64,000 bases of DNA. Source: Ignavibacteriaceae bacterium. GTDB taxonomy: Bacteria; Bacteroidota; Ignavibacteria; Ignavibacteriales; Ignavibacteriaceae. Shown in pieces: positions 13,109 to 55,862 of the stretch. The DNA is taken from positions 1 to 64,000 of the forward strand of contig JABWCL010000012.1 of NCBI GenBank assembly GCA_013360295.1. The letters are read 5' to 3'. Positions within the stretch are counted from its first letter, which is position 1. Each line of letters begins with the position of its first letter. The notes beneath the pieces are model-generated. The model did not search any database and was not told the origin of the DNA. It saw nothing but the letters and a program-made list of their open reading frames with translations. The translations under genes and the position numbers were made by a program.

Positions 13109-15277
13109 TTATTTAGAGGGAATGCTTACCTCGTAAATATTACCGGGTACTGACGCAGACCCCTCCTCTGTAATATAAATCTTTGACGAACCGGAGAAAG
13201 CAACAGCTTCAACCTGCCCCGGCAGAGTATTAAAAACATATTCAATTATTTCACCGGCGAAAAAATTATTACCAGGATAATTCCTGAAAACGATCAGCCT
13301 TTCTTTCACGAGCAAGACCAGTGCTCCGGCAGCATGATCAATATCAGCGGCAGTAAGCCAGGCGGCATTTACATTATTCCCCAGGAAATAGGAACCCGCA
13401 AGCTTAGCGACATGTGTTCCGGGCACCGCGGGTAGTTTATACATTTTGCTTATTCCGGTGAATGGAGAACTGCGGTCTTTTGTAAAGAGAAATATGGTAT
13501 CCTGCTTCCAGGCAATTGATTCAATGTCATAATTCGCGTTTGATGCGGGAGGCGGAAAAGCATTCTGATCCTCGAGAGTAAAATTTATTATCTCGGCAGC
13601 AACTTCGTTGCCGGTTATGGTTTCAGGATCAGGGATGCGGTAAATGGCCAGGTCAGTACGGCTGTTAGTATTGTTCCCGGCGTCGTTTATGTATATCCTT
13701 TTCTGGTTATCTGTTGCCAGGTCTTCCCAGTCAATATTATTCACATTGGTAATCGTTAAAGTACGAAGAAGCTGTCCTGCAGGATTAACACAGTGAAGCA
13801 CATTAGAGTTATTCGCGTCATTATGAGACCACAGTTTTCCGGCAGCAGTTATCGCAAGCCCTGAACTCTCCCTCAATTCCGCTGGTAGCTGTCCGGTGAT
13901 ACTTAATGTTACGGGCACTTTTGGATTCGATAGATTGGATAAACCTTTCGTAATTCTTCCGGATAACTGCCATGTTGTTCCGCCGTCCGGGCTGCGCCCG
14001 TATGACTGTAATTCCGCCATCGCAGGAAAAGTAACGCTATCAGCAATTCCGCCGTTACTATTTTCAAGCCAGACCTTTTCTCCCGCGCTTGAGAGCCCGA
14101 AATCGCTTGGGTCCCCGCTCCCTTCAGTTGTAATCACAATAAACCCGTTTGCCGGGACAATAGTACCGTCAGGAATCACTTTTTTAGGTTTGGCAGCCTG
14201 CTCGCCGCCGTTGTCGTAAATTTTATACCCGCTGATATCTCCGGGCGTTGAGAGTTTGTTATAAATTTCTATCCAGTCAGGCTCTATTGTGGTTCCTCGT
14301 GAATATATTTCGTTCATCACCACTGAAACAGGAAGCACGTTACTGTTGGCCGTGCCTTTCGTAATTGTAGTAAGTATCTGCCAGTTGGCGGAACCGTCAG
14401 GTAAGCGTCCGTAAGTTTGAGTTTCGATCATCGCGGCAAAAAGTACCGAATCTACTACAGCACCTGATGGATTCTCAAGCCACAGATTTTCTCCGGCACT
14501 TGAAAGCCCAAAGTCACTCGCATCACCCGATCCCTCGGTTGAGATCACGTAATAGCCGTTCGCCGGCACTATTGTTCCTGCCGGCAGTTCTTTTTTCGGC
14601 CTGTTCCCCGTATAACCGCCGATGTCATAAATCATATATCCGCTGATGTCAACGGGCGTGGAAGTAAGATTATATATTTCCACCCAGTCAGGCGCGCCAA
14701 CCGTCCCCCTCGAATAAATTTCATTCATAACGACGGGATTTTCAAGTGTTGTGCTTCCGTTCGAAACGCCTCTTGATGCAATGCCTGCCTCCCAGGTATC
14801 GGAGCCATCAGGCTGCCTGCCATATGAGTAGTTCGTCGCCAGCGCAGGAAATGTCACTGAATCGGCAATCGCGCCTTTAGAATTTTCAAACCATACTTTT
14901 CCGCCCTCAACTGATAAGTTGAAACCTGAGGCGGAGCTGTCATCGATCGTAATTACCAGGTAGCGCCCGGCCGGGATGACTGTTCCCGGAGCTAAAACCT
15001 TTTTAGCCTTGCTCCCGGTGACCGACTCCTCTCCGAATATTTTATATCCGGAAATATCAGCTTCAGCAGTGCCGGTGTTATAGAGTTCTATCCAGTCCGG
15101 AGTTACCGCGTTTCCGCGGGAATGAACTTCATTAATCTTAACAGTCTCAGCTGCCTGAGCGGGAGGCACCACGGGATTTTTATCCTCCGTGCAAGAGATG
15201 ATTGTAAGCAGAAGTATTACGGGCACACTTTTAACAATATTCAAAAAATATTTCAGTTTGATTCTGTTATTTAACAT
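13109..15277 (-). CDS. lipoprotein with three lamin-tail domains and a beta-propeller
   Basis: A 722-residue lipoprotein with lipobox IISC (Cys29). Three LTD repeats (about 45-175, 176-315, 316-455) each start with a (V/I)NE(V/I)(H/Y)SRG-type motif and contain PDW(I/V)E(I/L)YN. A propeller of about 250 residues follows (ESSGLAITAAGKLWSHNDAN, DWEDLATDNQKRIYINDAGN, EAVAFSGSSKIYITEEG). The propeller resembles the separate YjiK-like lipoprotein at 9979-10749. Its start overlaps the end of the Pit gene by 11 bp, so it is translated with the phosphate transporter. No enzyme motif is visible. Confidence 0.8.
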   Translation of the reverse strand: MLNNRIKLKYFLNIVKSVPVILLLTIISCTEDKNPVVPPAQAAETVKINEVHSRGNAVTPDWIELYNTGTAEADISGYKIFGEESVTGSKAKKVLAPGTVIPAGRYLVITIDDSSASGFNLSVEGGKVWFENSKGAIADSVTFPALATNYSYGRQPDGSDTWEAGIASRGVSNGSTTLENPVVMNEIYSRGTVGAPDWVEIYNLTSTPVDISGYMIYDIGGYTGNRPKKELPAGTIVPANGYYVISTEGSGDASDFGLSSAGENLWLENPSGAVVDSVLFAAMIETQTYGRLPDGSANWQILTTITKGTANSNVLPVSVVMNEIYSRGTTIEPDWIEIYNKLSTPGDISGYKIYDNGGEQAAKPKKVIPDGTIVPANGFIVITTEGSGDPSDFGLSSAGEKVWLENSNGGIADSVTFPAMAELQSYGRSPDGGTTWQLSGRITKGLSNLSNPKVPVTLSITGQLPAELRESSGLAITAAGKLWSHNDANNSNVLHCVNPAGQLLRTLTITNVNNIDWEDLATDNQKRIYINDAGNNTNSRTDLAIYRIPDPETITGNEVAAEIINFTLEDQNAFPPPASNANYDIESIAWKQDTIFLFTKDRSSPFTGISKMYKLPAVPGTHVAKLAGSYFLGNNVNAAWLTAADIDHAAGALVLLVKERLIVFRNYPGNNFFAGEIIEYVFNTLPGQVEAVAFSGSSKIYITEEGSASVPGNIYEVSIPSK

Positions 15278-16784
15278 TTTTCACAGGGGTATTATGATTA
15301 CTTTTTTTATTATTAGTTTTAACCCTGAAGAGATCTTCGAGCGCAAGCATCTTTTCATCCATCTCTCTGTCTTCCAGTTTGTTCCCTGTTTTTATCCATA
15401 CAGAGTCAACAAACACGGCTTGTTGGAAATCCATTTTGTGACTGAAAGACTTCCCCTGCAGCCCGGATATAATCGCTTTCTGAATGGGTGTGTATTTGTA
15501 CGCATCAGGGAAATCATTAAATAAGAGCGTATCCACCTTAAAACTGTCGACCAGGGCAAGATTAAATATCAGGAAGAGGTCATTATTCGAATATTTATTT
15601 CTTTCCAGAAGCTCATTCCTGAATATCTTTGTGTTGAAATACCTTTTGCCGGTAACATCATACAGGTTAGTTGTGTCAATGCCTTCCTTATGAAGTTTAA
15701 CAACTACCGATTTTGATATTTCGTAGGGAACCGGATGAATCACTTTCTGTTCAAAAACATTTTGTATAAAAAACAATGAAATAAATGTCATTAATCCCGC
15801 GCTGACGGGAGCGATCACCCAGCCGGCCGCGATCCTGCCTAGCACTCTGAAGTCAATCGACAGAGGATCCTTCGCCATACCAACCCCAATAATAGCCCCG
15901 ATAAATGCCTGCGTTGTTGAAAGGGGCACAAGAGGAATTGACGGCAGATTATTTCGCAGTAAAAAGGCTTCCAGCGTCTGTGATGTGAATAATGACAGCA
16001 CCAAAAACTCAGCAAGCACAACTACAAAACCGGTTATCGGAGATATCTTATAAAGATCAGTCCCGACCGTCTCCATTACCCTGTCGCCGTAAGTAAATAT
16101 TCCTATCGCGATCGCGAGCCCGCCAAGCAGAAATAACTGCTCGATTCCGCTTATCGTAAATAAACCCCAGACGCTGAAATCGCTGAAAAGCGGCGCGGAG
16201 ATAAACATTCCCATCACGTTCGCGATATTGTTCGCGCCGAGGGAATACGACGCCAGCGCTCCGACAATGATCAGCCCGATCCTTGTATAATAATCGAGTT
16301 CAAGTAAGTGTATTCTCCACTTCAGTATCGTGTTCTTTATCAGCTTGAATATCAGGAACGCTGATATTGCGGCGATCAGAGGGCTTGCCACCCAGCTGAA
16401 AAGGATCTTCGTCAGGGAGTTCAGGTCTGTCGGGGAACCGGTAAAAAGGTTCCAGCCGATTATACCTCCTATGACTGCCTGCGAAGTGGAAACCGGAAGC
16501 TGCGCTTTTGTCATAAGCGTAACTGCTATTCCAACCGCGAGAGCAACCGAGAAACTTCCCGCGATGGCATTTATCGAACCGAGATCGGTAATAGTCTTTG
16601 TTGTTCCGGCGCCGCTTACAACGGATCCGATGATTACGAATACCCCTCCGATCAGAGCGGCAGTCTTAAACTTAACCATCTTGGAAACCACTGCAGTGCC
16701 AAACACATTCACGGCGTGGTTCGCGCCCAGCGACCACCCCAGGAAGAGCCCGCTGGATATGAAAAACCAGACAGAAATATCCAA
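15267..16784 (-). CDS. inorganic phosphate transporter, Pit/PHO-4 family
   Basis: A 505-residue inner-membrane permease with about ten membrane segments up to residue 345. Both halves of the PHO-4 signature are present: SLGANHAVNVFGTAV near residue 20 and SLGANNIANVMG near residue 190, with PVSTSQAVIGGIIGWN and PLSTTQAFIGAIIGVG as duplicated re-entrant motifs. The last 155 residues are a hydrophilic extension (from about VIHPVPYEIS), unusually long for the family and of unknown role. The DUF47 gene lies immediately upstream (2 bp gap), the standard partner order. Confidence 0.93.
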   Translation of the reverse strand: MDISVWFFISSGLFLGWSLGANHAVNVFGTAVVSKMVKFKTAALIGGVFVIIGSVVSGAGTTKTITDLGSINAIAGSFSVALAVGIAVTLMTKAQLPVSTSQAVIGGIIGWNLFTGSPTDLNSLTKILFSWVASPLIAAISAFLIFKLIKNTILKWRIHLLELDYYTRIGLIIVGALASYSLGANNIANVMGMFISAPLFSDFSVWGLFTISGIEQLFLLGGLAIAIGIFTYGDRVMETVGTDLYKISPITGFVVVLAEFLVLSLFTSQTLEAFLLRNNLPSIPLVPLSTTQAFIGAIIGVGMAKDPLSIDFRVLGRIAAGWVIAPVSAGLMTFISLFFIQNVFEQKVIHPVPYEISKSVVVKLHKEGIDTTNLYDVTGKRYFNTKIFRNELLERNKYSNNDLFLIFNLALVDSFKVDTLLFNDFPDAYKYTPIQKAIISGLQGKSFSHKMDFQQAVFVDSVWIKTGNKLEDREMDEKMLALEDLFRVKTNNKKSNHNTPVKNVK

Positions 16785-16786
16785 AA

Positions 16787-17425
16787 CTATTCTAACCTTT
16801 TAATTATAGCGATGGATAACCTGTCGCATACATCCTCGGACTGTTCCGCGATCCGCTCAATATGAAAAGTAAAATATCTCGCGTGAATTTTCAGGCTGAG
16901 TTCGTGCTCGGTTCTGAATATTGTCCGCTTGATTTTCTCGGCGATCTTATTCGTTTCCTTTTTATAAAACTGAACTTTGATTATATAATCACGCACAGCG
17001 TCGATATTCTTGAAGTATGAACGGATACCGCTAACCGTATTCTCAAGGCACGAAATTGAACTATCAGCTATTTCAAGAAAATCGCTTCTTAGTTCCGGAA
17101 AGAGGTTCGGGATCTCCACTGAAAATTCAAGTAGTGTATCGGCGGTGATGTTAAGCGCCTTATCACAACTTTCGAGAAGCCCGAGAACGTCGCCTCTTGC
17201 CTCCGGGATCAGCGTTCGTGTATACAATTTAATTTCAATATTTCTGCGCAGGTCATCAGCTCTTTCTTCAATTTTTCTGAGGTCTTTAAGATGCGCCTCA
17301 AAATCATTCTGCTGGCCGTCGAAATAGCATTTAATTCCGAGTTTGAATACCAATCCCCCCTTTATTACCAGGTCAAGATATTCATCGATCTGCGATTCAA
17401 GTTTCTTTGTCTTTTTTAAGAACAT
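16787..17425 (-). CDS. DUF47 family PhoU-like Pit accessory protein
   Basis: A 212-residue all-helical soluble protein of the DUF47/TIGR00153 type: VFKLGIKCYFDGQQNDFEAHL, KIEERADDLRRNIEIKLYTR and DVLGLLESCDKALNITADTL. The family is related to PhoU and nearly always sits beside a Pit gene, where it is thought to modulate phosphate import. Here it is 2 bp before the Pit gene and 20 bp after the SLC13 permease, in one operon. Length is normal. Confidence 0.92.
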   Translation of the reverse strand: MFLKKTKKLESQIDEYLDLVIKGGLVFKLGIKCYFDGQQNDFEAHLKDLRKIEERADDLRRNIEIKLYTRTLIPEARGDVLGLLESCDKALNITADTLLEFSVEIPNLFPELRSDFLEIADSSISCLENTVSGIRSYFKNIDAVRDYIIKVQFYKKETNKIAEKIKRTIFRTEHELSLKIHARYFTFHIERIAEQSEDVCDRLSIAIIKRLE

Positions 17426-17445: not shown

Positions 17446-19041
17446 TCAGAATAAACCAAAAACACCGTGCGGGGTAATACCAAGGAACCTGAACCAGGTT
17501 TCACCGGCAACAATATTTAGCACCCACGCCGCGAACATTATTGTAAAACCAAATTTAAAAGTGTCGGACATCGTATAGTGCCCTGTCTCATAAAGCAGCG
17601 CCGCCGGTTTGCTGTTGAACGGAAGCACATAAACGTGTTCTATCATAAAAGCCACCGGAAGCGCCAGGCTGACAACTTCAAAGCCAAACCTGTTGGCAAC
17701 TCCTATGGCGATCGGGATAAATATCATTGCACGCATTGTCTTTGACTGGAAGAGAAGCGCGCTGAAAACCATCACCGCCGTCAGGAACAGGTAGAGCACC
17801 CAGAAATGGGCTTCATTACCGATCCCCAAAGCGTCGAAGAAAGATTTAATTGCGAGGAGCGGAAGGTCTGTGGCGTCGAGGCCAGCGCCTAATGCATATG
17901 CGCCCGCGGAGAAAAGCATCAGGTGCCAGGGAATATCAACATCATTCCACTTTACAATTCCGATACGGGGTAGAAGCGCAACGATCGCTCCGAGGAACGC
18001 GACTGCCGTCGGGCTGATGCCGTGAAGTTTATCGGTAGTCCACAGTGTAAGTATCAGGATAAATATGACCGCGGCTCTGACTTCAAGCCCCGTGAGCTTA
18101 CCCATCTTATGATATTCTTCTTTCAGCCGTTCCATTCCTCCTTCGATCTGCGGAAGCCTCTCTTCCGGCTTGAGCGGGAAGAAAACCTTGAGCGCGAGGA
18201 TATAACCGAGAAGCATTAATCCAAGCATAATTGGGAACATCGCCATCAACCAGTCAGAGAAGTAAATTTTTCCGCCAATCGCGCCTCCGATGAGTGCCGC
18301 GGCAAGAAGATTGGCGCCTGAACCGGTTACGAATCCGCTCGCGCCGATATTAATGTGCAGCAGGTTCTGGAGCACAATGCTTCTTCCGAAATTGTTTTTA
18401 TTATCTCCTCCTGTCGCCCCGTAAATCGCCGAGATAACCATAAAGATCGGGAGCAGAATAGCGGCTTTGGCGGTGGTGGCTGATATAAAAACCGAGAGGA
18501 CAATGTTTATGACCAGAAAACTCAGAAAGATCGTTGAGGCATTTTTACCGAACTTTACTATGAGCCACAGCGCGAACCTTTTGGCAAGCCCCGTAGCGAC
18601 AAGCATGCTTGCCAGTACAAACGACATAATATTGAGCCACATTACCGTATGTCCGAGCTGAGCGTACGCGGTCTTTTCAGAGAGCACTCCCGTTAATACA
18701 AGGCTTATTATAAGCATCAGGGATGTGAGGTAGTTCGGAATTGCCTGGGTCATCCACAGTATGATCGAGGCAGTGAAAATTCCTAACATTATATGGTTGT
18801 TACGGCTGAATGCTTCCGCGCCTATTTTTTCAAATGCCGTTTTAGCCGCATCCGATACCAGGGCAGTGGGGTCAATGTGTGATAAAAACGGGAATTGAAA
18901 AACATAACTAAAAAGAATAAATACAGCGGCTGCCAGAAAAGGCCCGGCAACCGCAAGCATTTTTTCAATTTTAGATTTATCCCGTTTTGGTAATTTCTCG
19001 ATACGGTAGTTATGCATATCGAGGGGATCAAAGTGTGTCAT
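17446..19041 (-). CDS. SLC13/DASS family anion permease
   Basis: A 531-residue polytopic permease with about 12 hydrophobic segments. It has duplicated DASS-fold features, including TMWL-type regions (VMWLNIMSFVLASMLVATGLA) and the C-terminal PFNSKPAALLYETGHYTMSD close to the family SNxP signature. SLC13 members import sulfate, dicarboxylates or phosphate with sodium. The location between CYTH and DUF47/Pit genes favours phosphate, or an organic phosphate counter-ion, but this is inference. The first 35 residues are charged and probably cytoplasmic. Confidence 0.85.
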   Translation of the reverse strand: MTHFDPLDMHNYRIEKLPKRDKSKIEKMLAVAGPFLAAAVFILFSYVFQFPFLSHIDPTALVSDAAKTAFEKIGAEAFSRNNHIMLGIFTASIILWMTQAIPNYLTSLMLIISLVLTGVLSEKTAYAQLGHTVMWLNIMSFVLASMLVATGLAKRFALWLIVKFGKNASTIFLSFLVINIVLSVFISATTAKAAILLPIFMVISAIYGATGGDNKNNFGRSIVLQNLLHINIGASGFVTGSGANLLAAALIGGAIGGKIYFSDWLMAMFPIMLGLMLLGYILALKVFFPLKPEERLPQIEGGMERLKEEYHKMGKLTGLEVRAAVIFILILTLWTTDKLHGISPTAVAFLGAIVALLPRIGIVKWNDVDIPWHLMLFSAGAYALGAGLDATDLPLLAIKSFFDALGIGNEAHFWVLYLFLTAVMVFSALLFQSKTMRAMIFIPIAIGVANRFGFEVVSLALPVAFMIEHVYVLPFNSKPAALLYETGHYTMSDTFKFGFTIMFAAWVLNIVAGETWFRFLGITPHGVFGLF

Positions 19042-19074: not shown

Positions 19075-19548
19075 TTATTTGCCCCATTTTTTGAAGGGGT
19101 TCTTCATGAGCATTGCGTTATAATATTTAACGTCTCCGGTAACTTCCTCACCTAGCCATTCCGGTTTGTTAAACGTGTCGCTTTCGGAACTTAATTCGAT
19201 CTCAGCCAGCGTAAGGCCTTCATTTTCTCCGTAGAATTCATCCACTTCAAAAGTATGGTCGCCGCTTTTCACCAGGTACCTGGTCTTATCAATTACGCCC
19301 GGTTCACATATCTTAAGCAGGTCTTCCACTTCGTTTGAGGGGATTTCTTTTTCCCATTCATACCTTGTCGCGCCGGATTCATTTCCGATACCTTTGACTG
19401 TGATATACCCTTTGTCACCTTTTATACGAACCCTGACAGTTCTTTCGGGCACGGAGGAAAGGTATCCCTGTACAATGCGGGTTGATTTGCTCGCGAGGTT
19501 TTTGTACTCGCCCTTTACTAAAAATTTGCGTTCTATTTCATTTGCCAT
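19075..19548 (-). CDS. CYTH-domain triphosphate tunnel metalloenzyme (inorganic triphosphatase-like)
   Basis: A 157-residue single CYTH domain. The signature EIERKFLV is at residues 4-11, followed by the alternating basic strand VRVRIKGDKGYITVKG and acidic strands RYEWEKEI, HTFEVDEFYG and LTLAEIEL that bind metal in the tunnel. Stand-alone CYTH proteins of this size hydrolyse inorganic tripolyphosphate or ThTP. In this phosphate cluster a role in polyphosphate or triphosphate breakdown is likely. It lies 9 bp after the larger CYTH-like protein and 33 bp before the permease. Confidence 0.88.
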   Translation of the reverse strand: MANEIERKFLVKGEYKNLASKSTRIVQGYLSSVPERTVRVRIKGDKGYITVKGIGNESGATRYEWEKEIPSNEVEDLLKICEPGVIDKTRYLVKSGDHTFEVDEFYGENEGLTLAEIELSSESDTFNKPEWLGEEVTGDVKYYNAMLMKNPFKKWGK

Positions 19549-19557
19549 TGTAAAACC

Positions 19558-20160
19558 TCACTTCATCCCGACCATATTTTTCAGTCCGCGGAGATAGTTT
19601 ACGTTCGGGAATAAATCGAGTTCGAGTTCCCTAACTGTTTTAATAACCATCGCGGGGTCTTCCATTTCAACTGCCGCTGTCCTGATAACTTTACCGTCAA
19701 CCGTAACTTCGGCAATTTCAACTATGCAGTTATTGATGGTGAAACCTGTACGTTTTTTATGCACGTTCACGGCTTTTAAAAGTTTGGACGGTTTGATCAC
19801 TTCATCAAGATATTGCTCGAAAGTGTATTCGGCGCGCTCAAATTTCGGGAGGGATACTTTGAAACATTTGAAAACCTTTTCAATTTCTGAAACAGGAAGC
19901 GGAAAAGTTCCTTTCATTATCGGCAGCCACAATTCGAGACGGTCCTCATTTACCTGCTGAAGTGTCTTAATATCCATAAGGTCATCCCTTACCTTGGTAT
20001 TATCCATGCTTACCTCAGATAGGATATAAACTTCAGAACTCTCCCTTGTCTTTCCTTCAGGGTGTTTTCTGATGTTTTCCTCAGCTTTTCCGAGGTCGTT
20101 AGTAAACGTACGCCATTCCCAGCGTGGTATTATCCCGGAGGGATTTGCATTCTCTGCCAT
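19558..20160 (-). CDS. divergent CYTH-like protein
   Basis: A 200-residue soluble protein. The pattern RWEWRTFTNDLG, SSEVYILS, TKVRDDLMDIKTL (basic strand), VEIAEVTVDGKVIRTAAVEME (acidic strands) and NVNYLRGLKNMVG fits a CYTH fold with an inserted central helix (about 90-130). It lacks the classic ExExK start, which is replaced by EWRTF. Known relatives are poorly characterised and found near polyphosphate genes. First gene of the minus-strand phosphate operon, with the sigma-54-like promoter about 50 bp upstream. Fold call fairly sure, activity unknown. Confidence 0.65.
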   Translation of the reverse strand: MAENANPSGIIPRWEWRTFTNDLGKAEENIRKHPEGKTRESSEVYILSEVSMDNTKVRDDLMDIKTLQQVNEDRLELWLPIMKGTFPLPVSEIEKVFKCFKVSLPKFERAEYTFEQYLDEVIKPSKLLKAVNVHKKRTGFTINNCIVEIAEVTVDGKVIRTAAVEMEDPAMVIKTVRELELDLFPNVNYLRGLKNMVGMK

Positions 20161-20208
20161 AATGATCTTCCTTTTTGTTAATTAAAAAATTAGTTATTGC
20201 TTTACTCA

Positions 20209-20225
20209 TTCAATAATCGTACCAA
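20209..20225 (-). promoter_or_regulatory. candidate sigma-54 (-24/-12) promoter for the phosphate operon
   Basis: On the minus strand this reads TTGGTACGATTATTGAA, against the consensus TTGGCACG-N4-TTGCA. It keeps the GG and the G ten bases later, with one mismatch in each element. It ends about 49 bp before the ATG at 20160. A dyad suited to an enhancer site lies about 80 bp upstream. Supported by the sigma-54 activator encoded divergently. Confidence 0.45.
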
Positions 20226-20304
20226 TTTATCTTCCGGAATTCTCCCCCGGAAACGGCGAAAATCATTGGATAATTCAATTTTTCTGTGTAATCTTCATAT
20301 GTAG

Positions 20305-20324
20305 AGTGACGAATTTTCGTCACT
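20305..20324. promoter_or_regulatory. perfect inverted repeat, candidate activator-binding site (UAS)
   Basis: AGTGACGAA and TTCGTCACT are perfect 9-bp arms around TT. An extra half-site (TGACGA) abuts on the right at 20325-20330. It lies almost exactly midway between the two divergent -24/-12-like sequences (80 and 77 bp away), the usual position for an NtrC-type enhancer. Confidence 0.6.
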
Positions 20325-20382
20325 TGACGATTTTTCAGCAGGCTTTTTCCCATTATCAGGAATTAGTGTCGAAAAATCATTG

Positions 20383-20397
20383 ATTGGCGGCGCCAAT
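20383..20397. promoter_or_regulatory. palindrome ATTGGCG-G-CGCCAAT
   Basis: Perfect 7-bp arms around a single G, four bases upstream of the plus-strand -24/-12-like sequence. Probably an operator or second regulator site; the binding protein is unknown. Confidence 0.4.
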
Positions 20398-20400
20398 TTT

Positions 20401-20417
20401 TTGGTATGATTTTTTCA
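20401..20417 (+). promoter_or_regulatory. weak candidate sigma-54 promoter for the sensor operon
   Basis: TTGGTATGATTTTTTCA resembles TTGGCACG-N4-TTGCA but has two mismatches in -24 and loses the G of the -12 GC. It is considered only because of its symmetric distance from the 20305-20324 dyad and its position about 35 bp before the start at 20452. Confidence 0.25.
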
Positions 20418-20451
20418 TATAGTAATTGTTAATGGAATGTATCTGTTTTTT

Positions 20452-21366
20452 ATGAGTAAAAAGAAATTAGTACCGACACTAAGTATAATTTTTGTAGCCG
20501 CCGCGATCTTTACTGTTGTCTTTTACGACTACTCCCTGAATATCAGCGGAAACTATAAAATCCCCGGAACTGAAGAGGATAAAGCCAGAGACGCCTCCGG
20601 AAAGCAGCTGGTATACATAGGTGTTATTTCGCGATATCCCCCCAATATTATCTACAGGGGCTACCAACCCATCCTCGATTATCTGACAAGTAAAACGGGT
20701 TACAGGTTCGAGCTGAAACTGAGCAGTGATTATAACGAAGCAGTAAAAATGCTGATCGACGGACAAACAGCCGCTGCATTCCTTGGGTCTTATGTATATG
20801 TTAAGGCACACGCGCAGTATGGGGTGATCCCGATTCTCAAACCATTGAATGAAAGTTTCGAGCCTTATTCGAGATCAGTGCTGATCACAAAGGCCTCTTC
20901 TAAACTATATAATGTTAAAGACCTGAAGGGGAAAAAGCTCGCCCTCCCTTCGAAGGAATCATTCTCCGGAAACTGGCTGATCAAATATGAATTTTCTAAA
21001 TACAATGTAAGAGAATCAGACCTTGCTGCTGTTGAGCACTTTCCGCATCATCAGAGTGTAATACACCAGGTTGAGATGGGGTACTTTGACGCTGGAGTGA
21101 CCAGGGAATTCCTCATAAAAACTATGAAGAACCGCGACTCACTTAGGATCATCCTCTACTCTGACCGGATCTCCACGTCACCGATCGTCGTAGCCCCGCA
21201 ACACGATAAAAAAATTGTTGAGGCCATCAAATCCACACTGCTGGAGGTAAACCGTAATACTCCGAATCGGGCGGAGATAACAAAGAACTGGGATAACGAA
21301 TTTATTTACGGTTTCGAAACAGCCGGCGATTCCGATTATGATTTCATAAGGGTTATAAGCAAGTAG
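20452..21366 (+). CDS. PhnD-like phosphate/phosphonate-binding periplasmic protein
   Basis: A 304-residue type II periplasmic-binding fold with an N-terminal membrane anchor (PTLSIIFVAAAIFTVVFYDY). PhnD-family landmarks are GVISRYPPNIIYRGYQPILD, AVKMLIDGQTAAAFLGSYVY, LKGKKLALPSKESFSGNWL, VEMGYFDAGVTREF and SPIVVAP near the end. No ABC permease or ATPase is nearby. The kinase gene begins 7 bp later, so this is more likely the sensory ligand-binding partner of the kinase than a transporter part. I prefer the start at 20452 (MSKKK) over the ATG at 20437, which only adds five residues. Confidence 0.85.
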   Translation: MSKKKLVPTLSIIFVAAAIFTVVFYDYSLNISGNYKIPGTEEDKARDASGKQLVYIGVISRYPPNIIYRGYQPILDYLTSKTGYRFELKLSSDYNEAVKMLIDGQTAAAFLGSYVYVKAHAQYGVIPILKPLNESFEPYSRSVLITKASSKLYNVKDLKGKKLALPSKESFSGNWLIKYEFSKYNVRESDLAAVEHFPHHQSVIHQVEMGYFDAGVTREFLIKTMKNRDSLRIILYSDRISTSPIVVAPQHDKKIVEAIKSTLLEVNRNTPNRAEITKNWDNEFIYGFETAGDSDYDFIRVISK

Positions 21367-21373
21367 AGTTTTT

Positions 21374-22825
21374 ATGTTCCGATTGAAATCCAGTCTTAAA
21401 ACCAGGATACTATTTACCACGGGCCTTGTTATCGTGGCGCTGATGCTTATAATTTCAGTTATTATACTAATTAAGTGGCGCGCGATAATCATCCAGAAAC
21501 AGACAGAAAATGCTTTCTCCGTTGCAAAAACCTTCAGCGTAACGGTTGTGGACGCGCTCATATTTGAAGAGAAGAGCGTCTACCAGAAAGAAAACATTCT
21601 GGATTCATATATCGATAATTTTATCCGTTTCCTCGGGAACGTGAAATACGTTACGGTATCCGATCAGAACGGTACTGAAATCACTTCCCGCTTTATTAAT
21701 GGTTATAATTCCGCCGACGCGCTGACGTCCTCAGCCGCAGGCAATGCCCCGAATACCGTTTATATAACAGAACACAAGTATTACGGATGGATACTGCAGT
21801 GTAACCTTCCAATTGAACTTTCCGGGAAAAAATGGGGGAACGTAAGCATCGCTTTCGATGCGCAGACGATCCGTGATGAAATAAGCAGCCTTTTCTTTTT
21901 GCTGCTCGGCGCTACAATTGTTCTTACATCTTTTATCCTCTCTATATTATACCTGCTTATCAACCGTCTTACGTATTCGCTGGGACAATTGGTAAGCGAG
22001 ATTGATAAAATTGACCTGATGACAGATACAAGCATCGCACTGCCGGAACAGAATGATGAGATAGGCTTTCTATATCATCACTTCGGACTGCTGAAAAAAC
22101 GTCTTGATATCTCAAAGGCAGAACTCGAAAACGCGCAAAAGCAGATATACCAGGCTGAGAAACTTGCCTCCATCGGAAGGCTTGCTTCCGGAGTGGCTCA
22201 CCAGGTTAATAATCCTCTTAACGGGATAAAGTCCTGCCTTTACGCCATAAAAAAAGATCCTTCAAACGCGGCGCAGGCTAAGGAATATATTGAACTGATA
22301 AACGAGGGAATAGAGAATATTGAAACCGTCGTGAAAAAACTTCTGGGATTCGCCCGGCAGCAGCCCCAGTCGAATGCCGTAATAGACATAAACGAATCAA
22401 TAGAAAAAGTTGTTAACCTTTTTGATTACAGGTTAAAGGATAACCGTATCTCTCTCTCGCTCGATCTCGCGGATGACCTCTCCCCTGTAAAAATTGAGTA
22501 CCACCTCTTCCAAGAAGTGATAATGAACTTCCTGCTGAACAGCTTTGACGCGATTGAGAAAGAGGGGAACATCAAGATCAGAACCGCCAACACTGAAAAT
22601 GATAAAGTATTAATTGAGATAACCGATAACGGCAGCGGGATTGATCCGGAAATACAGAAAAAGGTATTTGACCCCTTTTTCACTACAAAAGATATCGGGA
22701 TCGGCACCGGGTTAGGACTTTCGGTCTGTCTGGGAATTATTGAATCACATAACGGAAAAATTGAACTGGAAAGCAAGATCGGCACCGGAACAAAATTCAC
22801 GGTATATCTTCCTGTTGACAAATGA
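21374..22825 (+). CDS. membrane sensor histidine kinase, NtrB/AtoS-like
   Basis: A 483-residue kinase. Membrane helices at about 13-34 and 173-197 enclose a periplasmic sensor of about 135 residues. A HAMP-like linker and coiled coil lead to the HisKA domain with His276 in SGVAHQVNNPL. The HATPase domain follows (N box NFLLNSFDAI, G1 DNGSGID, G2 GTGLGLSV). The HQVNNPLNG phospho-site motif is typical of kinases paired with sigma-54 regulators. It overlaps the regulator gene by ATGA, so they are translated together. Likely senses ligand via the PhnD-like protein. Confidence 0.92.
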   Translation: MFRLKSSLKTRILFTTGLVIVALMLIISVIILIKWRAIIIQKQTENAFSVAKTFSVTVVDALIFEEKSVYQKENILDSYIDNFIRFLGNVKYVTVSDQNGTEITSRFINGYNSADALTSSAAGNAPNTVYITEHKYYGWILQCNLPIELSGKKWGNVSIAFDAQTIRDEISSLFFLLLGATIVLTSFILSILYLLINRLTYSLGQLVSEIDKIDLMTDTSIALPEQNDEIGFLYHHFGLLKKRLDISKAELENAQKQIYQAEKLASIGRLASGVAHQVNNPLNGIKSCLYAIKKDPSNAAQAKEYIELINEGIENIETVVKKLLGFARQQPQSNAVIDINESIEKVVNLFDYRLKDNRISLSLDLADDLSPVKIEYHLFQEVIMNFLLNSFDAIEKEGNIKIRTANTENDKVLIEITDNGSGIDPEIQKKVFDPFFTTKDIGIGTGLGLSVCLGIIESHNGKIELESKIGTGTKFTVYLPVDK

Positions 22826-24171
22826 AAATGAAGTTACTAATAATTGAAGATGAAAAAATAACCCGTATTTCCCTCTCTAATACTCTTGCGGCGGAAGGGT
22901 TCGAAGTCTTTTCAGCCGGGGATGGCGAAGAGGGGCTCGCGATTTTCAGCCGTGAGATGCCTGACATTGTTATCACCGACCTCAGGCTTCCGAAGATCAG
23001 CGGTATGGAAATTCTCGAAAGAGTTATAACATTAAAAGCTGACTGCAGGGTTATTCTTATCACTGCTTATGCTACTGTGGAAACGGCGGTGCGGGCATTA
23101 AAAACAGGCGCTTATGATTATCTGACAAAACCTTTTTCACCGGAGGAACTGCTCTCAATTCTTCGAAAGATAAAGCAGTTTAATATTGTTCTTGAGGAAA
23201 ATAAAGAGTTAAAGAAACGGATCAATCTGCTTGAGAATAGAACCATAATCGGGAACTCTCCGGCAATGAAAAAACTAAGTGAACTGATAAGCCAGATAGC
23301 TCAGAATGATTCAACAGTCCTTATTGAAGGAGAGAGCGGAACAGGTAAAGAACTGGTCGCGAGAGCGCTTCATCAGCACGGGCCAAGGAGGAACGAACCT
23401 TTTATTGTGGTCAGCTGTTCAAGCATCCCCGATACTCTTCTCGAAAGCGAACTGTTCGGCCACGAAAAGGGAGCGTTCACGGGTGCGGTAAACCGTCATA
23501 CAGGTTATTTTGAGCGGGCAAATAAAGGCACACTATTTATTGATGATATTGATGATATCCCTCTTCTGATGCAGGTAAAACTGCTTAGGGTGATACAGGA
23601 AAGGGAGTTGACGCGTGTAGGCGGCAGCGATAATGTAAAAATTGATGTGAGGATCATTGCAGCCACAAAAGTGAACCTGAAGAAAAAAGTTGAGCTGCGT
23701 GAATTCCGCGACGACCTTTACTACAGGCTTAATATCATTCCTGTCCGGATACCACCCCTCCGCGAACGTAAAGACGACCTTCCGATTCTTATTAAACACT
23801 TCTTTGGTAAATACGGAAGCGAGAAGAAGTTTGAACTGCTTAATGAAGAGATACTTAAGCGCATGATCGAATATAACTGGCCGGGAAATGTGCGTGAACT
23901 TGAAAATATTGTTCAGAGGATCATAGCCTTATCATTTCTCGGCACCCCCGACTTTACACTAATTGAATTCCCCGGACAATCCGTCAGGTATTCTCCTGCG
24001 CCGGATTCAGAGGTGAATTACCCGCCGTTCGAAGAATATATCCTTCAAAAGGAAAAGGAGATCATCGATTGGGCGCTGAAAAAAAGTGAAGATAACATCA
24101 GCCGGGCTGCTAAACTGCTTGGAATTCCGAGGACGACGTTAACGAGTAAACTTAATAAATTTCTGTGTTAA
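22822..24171 (+). CDS. sigma-54-dependent response regulator, NtrC family
   Basis: A 449-residue regulator with three domains. The receiver (about 3-120) has Asp53 in VITDLRLP and Lys in YLTKPF. The AAA+ domain (about 140-380) has Walker A GESGTGKE, the sigma-54-contacting GAFTGA loop and [10 protein letters not shown]. The Fis-type HTH at the C-terminus reads [19 protein letters not shown]. All elements needed for sigma-54 activation are present. Candidate targets are the divergent phosphate operon and its own operon through the dyad at 20305-20324. Confidence 0.94.
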
Positions 24172-46629: not shown

Positions 46630-47193
46630 TTATGCGTGTACGTTTAGTTGCTCTGCGGCCATTTCTTTACCGCGCAGTATAGCTTTTTCATTCAATGGTA
46701 TCGTGTGGTGATGCCTTTCTGGCAGCACTTTCTTCAGCGCGCCGAGTACGCTTTCGAGCGCGACAAGCGGTTTCATTTCAAGGAACGCGCCAAGCATTAT
46801 CATATTCGCGATCTGCTTTTTGTTCATCTTATTCGCTTCTTCGATAGCCGCTATCTTAAGCACGGTAATGTCCGTCCTTGTAGGAGCGGTAATCACTGTG
46901 GAAGCTTCATAGATCAGAACCCCTCCCGGTTTGATCGCCGCTTCAAATTTTTCCATTGAGGGCTGGTTCAGGATAATCCCCGAATCATACTTTGATATTA
47001 TCGGGGAACTAATCGGGCCTTCCGAAATTATGACGATACAGTTGGCGGTACCGCCGCGCATTTCAGGGCCGTATGATGGCATCCAGCTTGTTTCTTTATT
47101 GTCAAACATCGCGGCATAAGCAAGGGTCTGGCCCATTGAGAGGACACCCTGTCCGCCGAAGCCCGCGATAATTATTTCATCAGATTTGTACAT
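46630..47193 (-). CDS. korC: 2-oxoacid:ferredoxin oxidoreductase gamma subunit
   Basis: A 187-residue gamma subunit of the 2-oxoglutarate (or related 2-oxoacid):ferredoxin oxidoreductase, which contacts CoA and completes the active complex. The N-terminal GFGGQGVLSMGQTLAYAA is the family signature, and WMPSYGPEMRGGTANCIVII follows. A good ribosome site (AAAGGAG, 8 bp spacing) precedes the ATG. Third catalytic gene of the korDABC order; 13 bp separate it from korB. Confidence 0.9.
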   Translation of the reverse strand: MYKSDEIIIAGFGGQGVLSMGQTLAYAAMFDNKETSWMPSYGPEMRGGTANCIVIISEGPISSPIISKYDSGIILNQPSMEKFEAAIKPGGVLIYEASTVITAPTRTDITVLKIAAIEEANKMNKKQIANMIMLGAFLEMKPLVALESVLGALKKVLPERHHHTIPLNEKAILRGKEMAAEQLNVHA

Positions 47194-47206
47194 AGTAATA
47201 TCTCCT

Positions 47207-47977
47207 TTAATTCTTTCCCGGCACTTTCAGGTCGCCGAGCGGATACATAGGAAGCATGTTGTCTTCAAGCCACTTTATCGAATCAGCCGGGTTAACTCTC
47301 CAGCCTGAAGGACAGTTGGAAACTATCTCTACAAAACTGGTGCCCTTGTGAAGCTTCTGGTACTCAAAAGCATTCCTGATCGCTTTTTTGCATTTACGGA
47401 CGGCGTTCGGGGTATGCACTGCCTGCCGCGTTACGTAATAAGCGCCGGGCAGATGCGCAACAAGATCCGTCATCTTAAGCGGGTGTCCCATTGCTTCAAC
47501 TTCCCTTCCGTAGGGACTGGTTGAAGTGATCTGGTGGCATAAGGTTGTGGGAGCCATCTGGCCGCCGGTCATTCCGTAAATTGCGTTGTTAATAAAAAAT
47601 ATGGCAATGTTTTCGCCGCGGTTTACCGTATGGATTGTCTCCGCGGTACCTATAGCAGCAAGGTCTCCGTCACCCTGGTAGGTGAAAACATATTTTTCGG
47701 GGAGCAGTCTTCTGATACCCGTGGCAACAGCGCAGGCTCTGCCGTGAGCAGCTTCCTGCATATCAACCATCATATAATGATAGGCGAATACAGAGCATCC
47801 TACCGGCGCCACACCGATTGTCTGCTCCTCTATTCCCATCTCTTCCACAACTTCCATAATGAGGCGGTGTGCTACACCGTGCCCGCAGCCCGGGCAGTAG
47901 TGGAACGCGGTATCGCTCAGAGTATGCGGTTTTTCGTAAACCAGTTCAAGGTCTTCTAATACTGTATTGTCTTCCAT
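47207..47977 (-). CDS. korB: 2-oxoacid:ferredoxin oxidoreductase beta subunit (TPP-binding)
   Basis: A 256-residue thiamine-diphosphate subunit. FHYCPGCGHGVAHRLIMEV begins the domain, and YQGDGDLAAIGTAETIH with the downstream NNAIYGMTGGQ gives the GDG...NN Mg-TPP motif. In this family it decarboxylates 2-oxoglutarate and passes electrons to ferredoxin. The start is set at the ATG at 47977 because AGGAG lies six bases upstream; a TTG at 47983 is the only longer choice. Confidence 0.92.
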   Translation of the reverse strand: MEDNTVLEDLELVYEKPHTLSDTAFHYCPGCGHGVAHRLIMEVVEEMGIEEQTIGVAPVGCSVFAYHYMMVDMQEAAHGRACAVATGIRRLLPEKYVFTYQGDGDLAAIGTAETIHTVNRGENIAIFFINNAIYGMTGGQMAPTTLCHQITSTSPYGREVEAMGHPLKMTDLVAHLPGAYYVTRQAVHTPNAVRKCKKAIRNAFEYQKLHKGTSFVEIVSNCPSGWRVNPADSIKWLEDNMLPMYPLGDLKVPGKN

Positions 47978-47986
47978 TGTCAACTC

Positions 47987-49084
47987 CTAATCCTGTAATG
48001 CTGCTGATTTTTCTTCGATCTGTTCAAGCACCTCAAGTATCTCTTCCGGCGTCGGGATGATGCCGCCCATTCTGCCTTTGAAAAATACTTCTGTCTTACC
48101 GTTCACCGCGAGGCGAACGTCTTCTACCATCTGTCCGGAATTCATTTCCACGTCAAGGAAAGCCTTCGCGTGACCGGCCAGCTGGTTTATCCTCTCATAA
48201 GGGAACGGGAACAGCGTCTGCGGGCGCAGCAAACCTGCTTTAATTCCTTTTTCGCGCGCAAGATCTACAGTCTTGCGGACGATCCTCGCGCTGAGCCCGT
48301 ACGCAACCAGGATATACTCAGCGTCTTCGATCTGGTATTCCTCATAACGCACTTCGTTTTCCATTATCGTCTTATACTTAGCCTGCAGGTGAAGGTTTAT
48401 CTCCTCCATCTTTTCAGATTGTATATGCAATGATGTAATGACGTTGGGGCCCCTCTCCTTCGGTTTACCGGTGGTAGCCCAGGGCGGAACTGTTTTCGGG
48501 AGCGAACCCTCGGCACGGAGGTCAACTTTCTCCATCATCTGTCCGAGCGCGCCGTCGGCGAGTATCATCGCCGGGTTACGGTATTTTTCCGCGAGTTCGA
48601 ACCCGAGGAAAACAAAGTCAGCCATTTCCTGCACTGAAGCCGGGGCAAGAACGATCAGGCGGTAGTCTCCGTGTCCGCCTCCCTTAACAGCCTGGAAATA
48701 ATCTCCCTGGGAAGGCTGAATGGTACCAAGGCCTGGGCCGCCCCTGTTGATGTTCGCGAGCAGGCAGGGGAGTTCAGCGGAAGCGATATAGGATAATCCC
48801 TCCTGCATAAGGCTTATACCGGGGCTTGAGGAAGTGGTCATTACCCTTCCGCCTGCACCCGCGGCGCCATAAATCATATTAATTGCTGCAACTTCGCTCT
48901 CAGCCTGAAGCACTACTCCGCTTCTGTGCGGCACTTCAACTGTGAGGTATTCGAGTATTTCAGACTGAGGAGTGATCGGGTAACCAAAATACCCGTCCAT
49001 ACCGGCGCGAATTGCCGCCTCGGCAAGGGCTTCATTACCCTTCATCAGTTTTACTTCACGTGGTTTTAATTCTCTTTTTTCCAT
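47987..49084 (-). CDS. korA: 2-oxoacid:ferredoxin oxidoreductase alpha subunit
   Basis: A 365-residue alpha subunit. GNEALAEAAIRAGMDGYFGYPITPQSE and AAGAGGRVMTTSSSPGISLM are the pyrimidine-domain signatures; a transketolase C-terminal domain follows. The start is MEKRELKPREV at 49084; a longer frame to 49171 runs back into korD with no conserved sequence. The complex can run the oxidative or reductive TCA step between succinyl-CoA and 2-oxoglutarate. 2-oxoglutarate is the likeliest substrate from subunit sizes and order. Confidence 0.92.
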   Translation of the reverse strand: MEKRELKPREVKLMKGNEALAEAAIRAGMDGYFGYPITPQSEILEYLTVEVPHRSGVVLQAESEVAAINMIYGAAGAGGRVMTTSSSPGISLMQEGLSYIASAELPCLLANINRGGPGLGTIQPSQGDYFQAVKGGGHGDYRLIVLAPASVQEMADFVFLGFELAEKYRNPAMILADGALGQMMEKVDLRAEGSLPKTVPPWATTGKPKERGPNVITSLHIQSEKMEEINLHLQAKYKTIMENEVRYEEYQIEDAEYILVAYGLSARIVRKTVDLAREKGIKAGLLRPQTLFPFPYERINQLAGHAKAFLDVEMNSGQMVEDVRLAVNGKTEVFFKGRMGGIIPTPEEILEVLEQIEEKSAALQD

Positions 49085-49095
49085 AATCACAAACC

Positions 49096-49332
49096 TTAGA
49101 CAGCTTTCTTCATAGATGATTTTGACTGCCTGAAAACGGTAAATACCGCGTCGGGACAAACAAGCGCGCAATTGGTGCAGCCTGTGCAGGCGTCATTCTT
49201 TAACTGGATGAACTTATAGCCCTTAAGGTTAATATTATTTGTGAGGGCAAGGCAGTCCTGCGGACAGGCGCTGATGCACAGTTCGCATCCCTTGCAGAGT
49301 TCGGTAGCTATTTTAACTGTTCCTTTTATCAT
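49096..49332 (-). CDS. korD: 2-oxoacid:ferredoxin oxidoreductase delta subunit (2x[4Fe-4S])
   Basis: A 78-residue ferredoxin-like subunit with two cluster motifs, CKGCELCISACPQDC and CTGCTNCALVCPDAV. First gene of korDABC, separated from korA by 11 bp. It carries electrons between the TPP centre and soluble ferredoxin. Length and motif spacing are standard. Confidence 0.93.
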   Translation of the reverse strand: MIKGTVKIATELCKGCELCISACPQDCLALTNNINLKGYKFIQLKNDACTGCTNCALVCPDAVFTVFRQSKSSMKKAV

Positions 49333-49634
49333 AATAACAATTCCTTAAAATGTAATTAGTTCTTAACATTCAATTAATGTGCCACAGTAAAAAAGCCGCT
49401 TTTTCTCACTTAAACGGGCTTATTCCGCTGTGATTTATTCAGAATGGGAGATGCTTTCGCGTTGTTTTACCGTTTCCGAGAAAAATAATGCGACTATTAA
49501 TAATTGATAAAATGAAATATTTAGCAGAATAAGAGAAGGATTTGGAGATTTACCGGTGTAAATCCGGGCAGGTAACGCAAAGTAAATCCGTCCGCCGGGC
49601 GTAGAAAACCGCCCGGCTGAGACGGGATTTAAAT
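49333..49634. other. 302-bp intergenic stretch with stem-loops
   Basis: Contains a stem-loop at 49547-49564 (GATTTAC/GTAAATC around CGGT), a second GTAAATCCG copy at about 49582, and the hairpin at 49594-49617 listed separately. It should hold the kor promoter near its left end; no consensus was recognised. Confidence 0.5.
49594..49617 (-). terminator. GC-rich hairpin after the cNMP-binding gene
   Basis: GCCGGGCG and CGCCCGGC pair perfectly around TAGAAAAC, 18 bp past the stop at 49635. The following T-run on the minus strand is weak (GGATTTACTTT). Confidence 0.65.
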
Positions 49635-54612: not shown

Positions 54613-55785
54613 TCATATAGAAACCCTGACTTCTCCGTTCATCAGCTTCGGCAGTAATGTATCGCGAAGTTTTTCGAGAGAACTTATTTGATTCTTGTTA
54701 TCTAATAACCTAAAAAAGTAATGACTAATTGATTTTTCAAATTTCAAAATTTCTGGTTCGAACGGAATTAAAACCTTAATTTCCTTAAAGGTGTATGTTG
54801 TTATAGTATCAAATACAGATCCATAAGCAGAAGATTGAAGTTCTTCTACAATGTGATTGATTAATAGATAAACAAAGAAGAAACAATTAGATGTTTTGGG
54901 TAAAATACCGTAATTAGATTGACTGAAAGCCATTGGTTCGGCGAGTAAGCAATATTTGCCAACTGTTCCTCTTGCAGAAATAACAGTTGAATATTTAGGC
55001 AACAATTTGGCAGAGCTATTATTTAAACCGTCTTCAGAGATAAACTTTTCTGTTCCAAGAATAAAAGATTTATGATTTGTGGCAATATCACCTCCTGAAA
55101 TCCAGCATATTTTGCCATCCCAGAAATCAGGGACAGATGTTTTTGGTGTGCCGCCACCGATTAATTGGATTAGTTCAAGAAGACTACCTTCATGCCATTC
55201 ATTATTAGCACCTTCCACAAACCACTGCCGGAACAGCGCCTCTGCCATTGCTTCAAGTGTTTTGTTCTGGCGGTGGAGCAGGTCAATCTTGTCGTCTAAA
55301 CTGGAAAGCACTCCGGCGATGGCTTTTTGTTCGGGGAGAGGGGGGAGGAGAAAAGAATATTCTCGAATTGTCTTTAAAGATACATTTTTAATTGTGGTAC
55401 CATGAGCAAATGCGTCAATATAGTTTTGGAAATGATTATTTGTTAGAATGTAGTATATATAATCTTTATCAACGTCGTCAAGTACGTTTAAGAAGCAAGC
55501 ACTCTTCCCTAAAATACATTTTTCACCCTGGTAATAGGCAACGTTTCCCAACGTACCATTGATTGAAAGAAGTAAAGTGCGTTCTCCGAGATTTTTGTCA
55601 AATTTTAAGAATTCGACCTCGGTAGACTTTCTGGTATCTGCTTTAATTATAATATCGCCATTCGACAGATTGTTGCCATTTATAAAGTAATAATCACCAT
55701 TATCTTCGAATTTTGGCGTGCCATGTAAACCATCTCCTATTTTTGAGACCACGTCTTGCATTGTAACTGCGTTCCACTCACTCAT
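54613..55785 (-). CDS. hsdS: type I restriction-modification specificity subunit S
   Basis: A 390-residue specificity subunit with two target-recognition domains (about 1-145 and 196-345), each followed by a conserved helix: LPPLPEQKAIAGVLSSLDDK after the first and LIPFEPEILKF to the C-terminus after the second. It fixes the bipartite DNA target. The gene is clearly more AT-rich than hsdR and hsdM around it, as expected for frequently exchanged TRDs. Target cannot be read from sequence. Confidence 0.93.
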   Translation of the reverse strand: MSEWNAVTMQDVVSKIGDGLHGTPKFEDNGDYYFINGNNLSNGDIIIKADTRKSTEVEFLKFDKNLGERTLLLSINGTLGNVAYYQGEKCILGKSACFLNVLDDVDKDYIYYILTNNHFQNYIDAFAHGTTIKNVSLKTIREYSFLLPPLPEQKAIAGVLSSLDDKIDLLHRQNKTLEAMAEALFRQWFVEGANNEWHEGSLLELIQLIGGGTPKTSVPDFWDGKICWISGGDIATNHKSFILGTEKFISEDGLNNSSAKLLPKYSTVISARGTVGKYCLLAEPMAFSQSNYGILPKTSNCFFFVYLLINHIVEELQSSAYGSVFDTITTYTFKEIKVLIPFEPEILKFEKSISHYFFRLLDNKNQISSLEKLRDTLLPKLMNGEVRVSI

Positions 55786-55835: not shown

Positions 55836-55862
55836 AATTGGGCAACAAGTTGTTGCCCAATT
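55836..55862. promoter_or_regulatory. 27-bp perfect palindrome between hsdM and hsdS
   Basis: Arms AATTGGGCAACAA and TTGTTGCCCAATT around a single G. It lies 183 bp after the hsdM stop and 51 bp before the hsdS start on the minus strand. No T-run follows, so it is more like an operator than a terminator. A promoter for hsdS/hsdR may lie here. Confidence 0.55.

Follow-up and report, generated by a model that had tools for sequence, protein, structure and literature searches.

The region between two opposite gene sets in an Ignavibacteriaceae genome is, as judged from its sequence, a conserved DNA control region, probably for both of them. It lies in the window, the whole 64-kb stretch of DNA that was analyzed, and is very probably a shared, divergent, enhancer-dependent sigma-54 control region, in which a regulator on tandem dyads would activate both operons, including the one that carries its own gene (autoregulation). 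The sites proposed in an earlier note on this DNA were confirmed where that note had placed them, and its interpretation of them was supported. The features of the locus are as follows.

15267-16784, minus strand: Pit/PHO4-type phosphate transporter (PF01384)
16787-17425, minus strand: DUF47/PhoU-like protein (PF01865)
17446-19041, minus strand: DASS/SLC13 family anion symporter (PF00939, TIGR00785)
19075-19548, minus strand: CYTH-domain protein (PF01928)
19558-20160, minus strand: triphosphate tunnel metalloenzyme (TTM)-fold protein of 200 aa, first gene of the left operon; fold predicted, without a Pfam or NCBIfam match
20209-20225, minus strand: -24/-12 (sigma-54) promoter of the TTM-fold/CYTH/SLC13/DUF47/Pit operon, with a counterpart in 20 of 20 regions
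20305-20324, no strand: upstream activating dyad 1, proposed site of the adjacent NtrC-type regulator; the 16-mer core (20307-20322) is TGACGAATTTTCGTCA
20325-20340, no strand: upstream activating dyad 2, TGACGATTTTTCAGCA, 18 bp from dyad 1, right half weaker
20383-20397, no strand: second palindrome, ATTGGCGGCGCCAAT, own genome only; no function claimed
20401-20417, plus strand: weak -24/-12-like promoter of the PhnD-like/kinase/regulator operon (own P = 0.245)
20452-21366, plus strand: PhnD-family periplasmic binding protein, presumed sensor (profile match, structure and alignment comparisons)
21374-22825, plus strand: sensor histidine kinase (profile match)
22822-24171, plus strand: NtrC/AtoC-type response regulator with a receiver, an AAA+ domain with an intact GAFTGA, and a Fis-type helix-turn-helix

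The open reading frame of the PhnD-like protein was listed from 20437, and by eye a start at 20452 agrees better with its relatives.

The dyad AGTGACGAATTTTCGTCACT was present at 20305-20324 (plus strand), and the minus-side sequence TTGGTACGATTATTGAA at 20209-20225 (minus strand) and the plus-side sequence TTGGTATGATTTTTTCA at 20401-20417 (plus strand) were also found at the positions noted earlier. The distances of 80 and 77 bp that had been given for the two sides hold as edge-to-edge coordinate differences; from the dyad center to the -24 GG the spacings are 92 and 89 bp. These spacings fit the pattern described in the accessible text on Desulfovibrio vulgaris, in which sigma-54 promoters fall most often within 100 nt of an activator site (PMC4641369).

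By itself, the dyad count in the window was unremarkable, the number of palindromes being near chance level: perfect dyads with arms of at least 9 and gaps of 0 to 4 had 2 centers in the 64 kb, own dyad counted, compared to an average of 1.35 over 20 dinucleotide shuffles. The exact sequence of the dyad occurred once in the window, and the closest matches elsewhere in the genome had 2 mismatches. Dyad 1 was the top-scoring site in the window (22.8 bits) with a matrix trained without its own genus, and the tandem second site at 20325-20340, absent from the earlier note, scored 12.2 bits. The second palindrome was present as placed at 20383-20397 but was not conserved (0 of 26 other upstream or intergenic sequences), which rules it out as a conserved element. 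A regulon beyond the locus was also rejected, as near matches to the dyad elsewhere in the genome were not commoner than those to the reversed control (10 versus 18 forward matches with at most 3 mismatches; 23 and 24 versus 40 and 48 with at most 2). Two one-mismatch dyad sites that were inspected in the genome both fell within long open frames. The sole other perfect dyad in the window with arms of at least 9 (55836-55862; 13-bp arms, 1-bp gap) falls between the open reading frames 54613-55785 and 56045-57598 and is perhaps a terminator.

In order to evaluate conservation, the regulator was searched against 59 related genomes, and the TTM protein was searched against 164 genomes of the order and 395 of the phylum. 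The two TTM-protein searches yielded 28 genomes with a match, own genome included. The divergent layout, in which genes for a PhnD-like sensor, a histidine kinase, and an NtrC-type regulator lie opposite a TTM-fold/CYTH/SLC13/DUF47/Pit operon, was found in 20 genomes (own included), with some gene losses. Those left out were four genomes with no sensor genes in the stretch read (G108, G140, G037, and G162), two in which contig ends cut that side (G158 and G161), one with a gene fragment at a contig end (G087), and G317 (E value, 5e-4). The 20 genomes come from several families, from elsewhere in the class, and from a more distant branch of the phylum. The gene set was full in most of them; G176 had the TTM gene alone of the left operon in the stretch, and in G017 the two halves were on two contigs.

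A dyad matrix was made from the sites read by hand at the first 13 loci; each locus was then scored with its close kin left out. With this leave-group-out matrix, the dyad was found in 20 of 20 orthologous regions (13.9 to 22.8 bits; shuffle P ≤ 0.01), with the consensus TGRCGA-WWWW-TCGYCA, and 18 of the 20 regions had a further copy above 7 bits, usually 18 to 22 bp off. When 13 whole genomes were searched for the exact consensus, all 9 rows (6 places in 5 genomes) were at the sensor/TTM locus, and the reversed control gave 3. The exact consensus was absent from 8 of the 13 genomes, whose own dyad sites deviate from it.

Scored with a -24/-12 matrix made from minus-side sites read by hand, again without the close kin of each locus, the minus-side site came first in 20 of 20 regions, where it had been read by eye, and P was ≤ 0.03 in 19 of them; the caveat applies that this matrix and the dyad matrix were both built from sites picked by eye. 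The exception, G089 (GGGCACCATCCTTGCT), had a P value of 0.725 with the leave-group-out matrix and 0.003 with a literature-based one. Within the left segment, minus-strand scores exceeded plus-strand scores in 19 of 20 regions and, once kin were thinned, in 14 of 14. Eight places in the window scored at least as high as the minus-side site, itself counted (matrix without own genus), and its -12 element is TTGA, not TTGC. With a counterpart in every region, the minus-side promoter of the earlier note is well supported. What goes beyond chance at this locus is that the dyad and the minus-side promoter are conserved together in all 20 orthologous regions.

The distance from the dyad to the minus-side -24/-12 site ranged from 59 to 158 bp across the 20 regions. 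Helical phasing between dyad and promoter was examined and proved unconvincing: with a period of 10.5 bp, P was 0.11 for the minus side and 0.017 for the plus side, but a control period of 8.5 gave 0.012 for the minus side. Plus-side picks with GG gave P = 0.0006 for phasing, but these are a post hoc subset chosen after the data were seen. The best -24/-12 match in the window was at 49369-49384 on the minus strand (18.0 bits; TGGCACATTAATTGAA), just upstream of a stretch that by eye is ferredoxin-like, followed by 2-oxoacid:ferredoxin oxidoreductase genes (46630-49171); it is probably the promoter of another sigma-54 operon.

The plus-side match had been called weak, and it is so in its own genome (P = 0.245). 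The P value was ≤0.05 in 5 of the 20 regions and >0.05 in 15, and 186 places in the window scored at least as high as the plus-side site (-24/-12 matrix without own genus). As a group, however, the plus-side sites did show a signal: in the 130 bp beyond the dyad on the right side, plus-strand scores were the higher in 19 of 20 regions and, with kin thinned, in 13 of 14 (Wilcoxon P = 0.0001).

Seven TTM genes without visible sensor genes were scored, two of them at contig ends. In the 500 bp upstream of the other five, the dyad score was at most 8.3 bits and the promoter score at most 5.2 bits (5 of 5). Of the two at contig ends, G158 had both dyad and promoter, and G161, with 133 bp of upstream DNA, had the promoter, with no dyad in that stretch. 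Further loci were taken from the 80 of 482 matches that were listed for named genomes; 10 of these were judged to be contigs already used and were dropped, leaving 9 with and 61 without sensor genes, with loci near contig ends kept among the 61. Among the matches listed, a dyad of at least 16.9 bits was found within 450 bp of the TTM gene at 8 of the 9 loci with adjoining sensor genes versus 1 of the 61 without. The ninth sensor-gene locus (L144, Calditrichia) has two dyads about 515 to 550 bp out, read by eye, and the single exception (L145) lies near a contig end, its contig starting 360 bp upstream. A -24/-12 score of at least 14 was likewise found, among the matches listed, at 8 of the 9 loci with sensor genes versus 3 of the 61 without, the ninth (L190) having a promoter stretch of masked N, treated as A in the scoring. 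Some of the 9 further loci are closely related to one another and to the 20, so that they do not amount to nine independent tests. By record title, the loci with the sensor/TTM pair belong to Ignavibacteria and relatives, Bacteroidota/Bacteroidetes, candidate division KSB1, and Calditrichia or are named only "bacterium." At two KSB1 loci (L179 and L183), the sensor genes are upstream in the same direction, and the TTM gene still has the dyad and promoter ahead of it. The earlier note had named lack of the dyad in close relatives as evidence that would count against its reading; the dyad was kept in close and distant relatives and was tied to the presence of the regulator.

In a same-genus relative (L042, 2746-3795), a second TTM/CYTH gene pair adjoins the regulator gene. 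This TTM copy has an in-frame stop, and its upstream region is without dyad and promoter.

The gene for sigma-54, rpoN, whose absence had also been named as evidence against the earlier reading, was found in the own genome, as it was in all 20 genomes with the layout. The GAFTGA loop attributed to the adjacent activator was indeed intact in the regulator encoded at 22822-24171. The loop was GAFTGA in 12 of the 20 regulators (own and 11 others), GSFTGA in 4, GAFTNA in 2, and GAFSGA in 2; GAFSGA, GAFTHA, and similar variants are listed for Desulfovibrio activators in the accessible text of PMC4641369. The receiver Asp was kept in all 20. In a quick tree, the 20 regulators formed one clade apart from 23 paralogues (SH-aLRT, 100), and the recognition helix PR(T/S/G)T was present in 20 of 20 regulators and 0 of 23 paralogues. 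The regulators of G017 and G096 (L046 and L091) have GAFTNA for GAFTGA, and the -12 element of their left promoters is TAG for TTG. A paired change is possible, although G379 has TAG with GSFTGA.

The closest solved structures to the PhnD-like sensor were ArrX and AioX. Seven pocket residues of AioX, including the arsenic site Cys106, are defined in the accessible text of PMC5908839, with Gly in PhnD at that position. The counterpart of Cys106 was Gly in 20 of 20 sensors; the counterparts of Tyr88, Ser163, His192, and Asp210 were kept in all 20, that of Ser161 was kept in 18, and that of Tyr131 was Tyr in 7, Phe in 11, and Val in 2. According to the same text, the ligand is not determined by the pocket residues by themselves, and phosphate is bound by ArrX at 150 µM (PMC5908839); phosphate is therefore proposed as the ligand from the content of the operon.

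The three sensor-operon proteins resemble AioXSR and ArxXSR of Rhizobium NT-26, Agrobacterium, and Alkalilimnicola, in which, as far as the accessible texts describe, a PhnD-like periplasmic protein, a kinase, and an AtoC/NtrC-type regulator act on an RpoN promoter, TGGCACAACGATTGCA in Rhizobium NT-26 (PMC5908839, PMC6011840, PMC5335332), and the footprinted AioR site is a 16-bp dyad, GTTCGGATTTCCGAAC (PMC5335332). There are also differences. The sensor here has Gly at the Cys106 position in all 20 genomes, and the target is a TTM/CYTH/SLC13/DUF47/Pit operon rather than a molybdenum arsenic enzyme. The dyad is TGRCGA-W4-TCGYCA, whereas that of AioR is given as GTT-N10-AAC (PMC5335332). The sensor operon here has its own sigma-54-like promoter, whereas NT-26 aioX is described with RpoD and RpoE2 promoters, with a predicted AioR site marked there (PMC6011840). 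The best reading of the locus is an AioXSR-like sigma-54 system that would have been redirected to phosphate/triphosphate genes and would also regulate itself.

Other explanations have to be weighed against this reading. The dyad might be an ordinary palindrome among AT-rich -24/-12 lookalikes, and counts within the window alone are indeed near chance level; the recurrence of both elements in all 20 regions and at the further loci makes such a coincidence exceedingly improbable. A greater uncertainty concerns the right side, where the sensor/kinase/regulator operon might have a housekeeping promoter and the plus-side match might be noise, leaving the left operon alone under sigma-54 control. 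The high plus-side P values, in the own genome and in 15 of 20 regions, are in keeping with this, as is the reading of NT-26 aioX from RpoD and RpoE2 promoters in the accessible part of PMC6011840; in the two co-directional KSB1 loci, a shared enhancer would be unneeded. Against this, right-side scores favor the plus strand in 19 of 20 regions, a Fisher test across 14 kin groups gives P = 0.005, and good matches with the -12 GC kept occur in the most distant relatives, G264 (GGGTATGAATTTTGCT) and G183 (AGGTATGAATATTGCA). A housekeeping promoter for the sensor operon is doubtful, but its probability is appreciable.

It seems quite improbable that the dyads are the operator of another regulator, such as a repressor, unrelated to the neighboring NtrC-type protein. 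The pairing of protein and DNA is a prediction, and the reported AioR site, GTT-N10-AAC, differs in its letters (accessible text of PMC5335332), but the dyad tracks the PhnD/kinase/regulator genes (8 of 9 versus 1 of 61 among the matches listed, with low scores in 5 of 5 negative controls), its exact consensus occurs nowhere else in 13 genomes, it has the 16-bp dyad form of the footprinted AioR site, and the recognition helix is conserved alongside it. The sensor might instead detect an arsenic oxyanion, making the operon an arsenic response, a suggestion that draws on ArrX and AioX being its closest solved structures. This too is improbable: the AioX-specific Cys106 is replaced by Gly in 20 of 20 sensors, as it is in PhnD according to the accessible text of PMC5908839, and the operon carries phosphate-transport and triphosphatase-type genes. 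The arsenite oxidase large subunit was not found above the cutoff in any of 16 genomes searched, and there were no molybdoenzyme genes among the neighbors adjoining the own sensor operon.

The preferred reading, an AioXSR-like system acting on a shared sigma-54 control region, builds on the computed conserved sites, promoter sequences, gene order, co-occurrence, and rpoN, and from these we infer the binding protein, looping, operon structure, ligand, and direction of response. The PhnD-like protein would sense phosphate or a similar oxyanion in the periplasm and signal to the kinase as in AioXSR. The phosphorylated NtrC-type regulator (22822-24171) would then oligomerize on the tandem dyads (20305-20340) and, through a DNA loop, contact sigma-54 RNA polymerase at the -24/-12 promoters on either side. 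Strong activation at 20209-20225 (minus strand) would drive the TTM-fold/CYTH/SLC13/DUF47/Pit operon, and weak activation at 20401-20417 (plus strand) would drive the regulator's own PhnD-like sensor/kinase/regulator operon, which would amount to positive autoregulation.

NtrC-type enhancer-dependent sigma-54 promoters, such as that of glnA, have dyads upstream of the -24/-12 elements and an AAA+ activator that bears GAFTGA. The locus shares these properties; unlike such promoters in general, it has one enhancer common to two divergent promoters, and the search of its own genome found no further target. Bacterial phosphate control is usually told through PhoB and Pst. The system described here has in common with PhoR-PhoB-Pst a probable theme of phosphate supply and a PhoU-like protein in the operon, but here the winged-helix regulator gives way to an AAA+/Fis-type one and sigma-54, and the direct repeats described for PhoB in the accessible text of PMC3333781 give way to dyads. 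An OmpR-type PhoB regulator was not found at the locus, where the regulator is NtrC-type; elsewhere in the own genome there were four near-full-length matches to the PhoB model, none of them over the PhoB cutoff. PstB above the family cutoff was missing in 6 of 16 searched genomes with the system, and thus the system seems not to depend on Pst; the own genome has PstB.

No description of the sensor/operon pair was found in the literature searched by titles and abstract openings, mainly outside subscription journals. It is an evenly balanced proposition that an unnamed XSR branch senses periplasmic phosphate, or a phosphate-like anion, and controls the widespread TTM-fold/CYTH/SLC13/DUF47/Pit module via sigma-54 and a shared divergent enhancer. 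If true, Ignavibacteria, other Bacteroidota, KSB1, and Calditrichia would have a regulon for phosphate or triphosphate/polyphosphate homeostasis that depends on neither PhoB nor Pst. Such a sigma-54 circuit, conserved and with a periplasmic sensor of its own, would represent a second route of phosphate control, also where PstB is missing above the cutoff. It would place the TTM/CYTH proteins found beside Pit transporters in the context of a regulon, and a concrete candidate operator sequence would be gained for little-studied phyla.

The 200-aa protein encoded by the first gene of the left operon is predicted to have a TTM fold. It had no Pfam or NCBIfam profile match and no sequence match in the PDB up to an E value of 1, but its structural model had a mean pLDDT of 92.1, and Foldseek placed thiamine triphosphatase and other TTM chains on top (best E value, 5.1e-6; TM scores of about 0.35 to 0.53 in the top 20). 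The family has invariant R, K, and E residues, which presumably fit the charged TTM tunnel.

Among the matches listed (L133 to L212), the TTM-fold family was found, by record title, in Acidobacteriota, Cloacimonadota, Bacillota, Deltaproteobacteria, SAR324, Shewanella, and others, and its genes were often beside CYTH, SLC13, DUF47, or Pit genes. A polyphosphate link is plausible in view of the phosphatase gene beside the TTM gene in a Bacillota relative (L155). Sigma-54 control of the family probably extends past the three-component system. In three Bacillota/Clostridia/Firmicutes metagenome-assembled genomes (L155, L159, and L168), the TTM gene faces the gene for a one-component sigma-54 activator (PrpR_N, PAS, AAA+, and Fis), with -24/-12 sequences such as TTGGCACGGTTTGTGCATTA between the TTM gene and the divergent activator. 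Perhaps a different sigma-54 activator controls the same enzyme family in these genomes. At one of the three loci (L155, Bacillota), a gene for a Ppx/GppA-family phosphatase follows the TTM gene.
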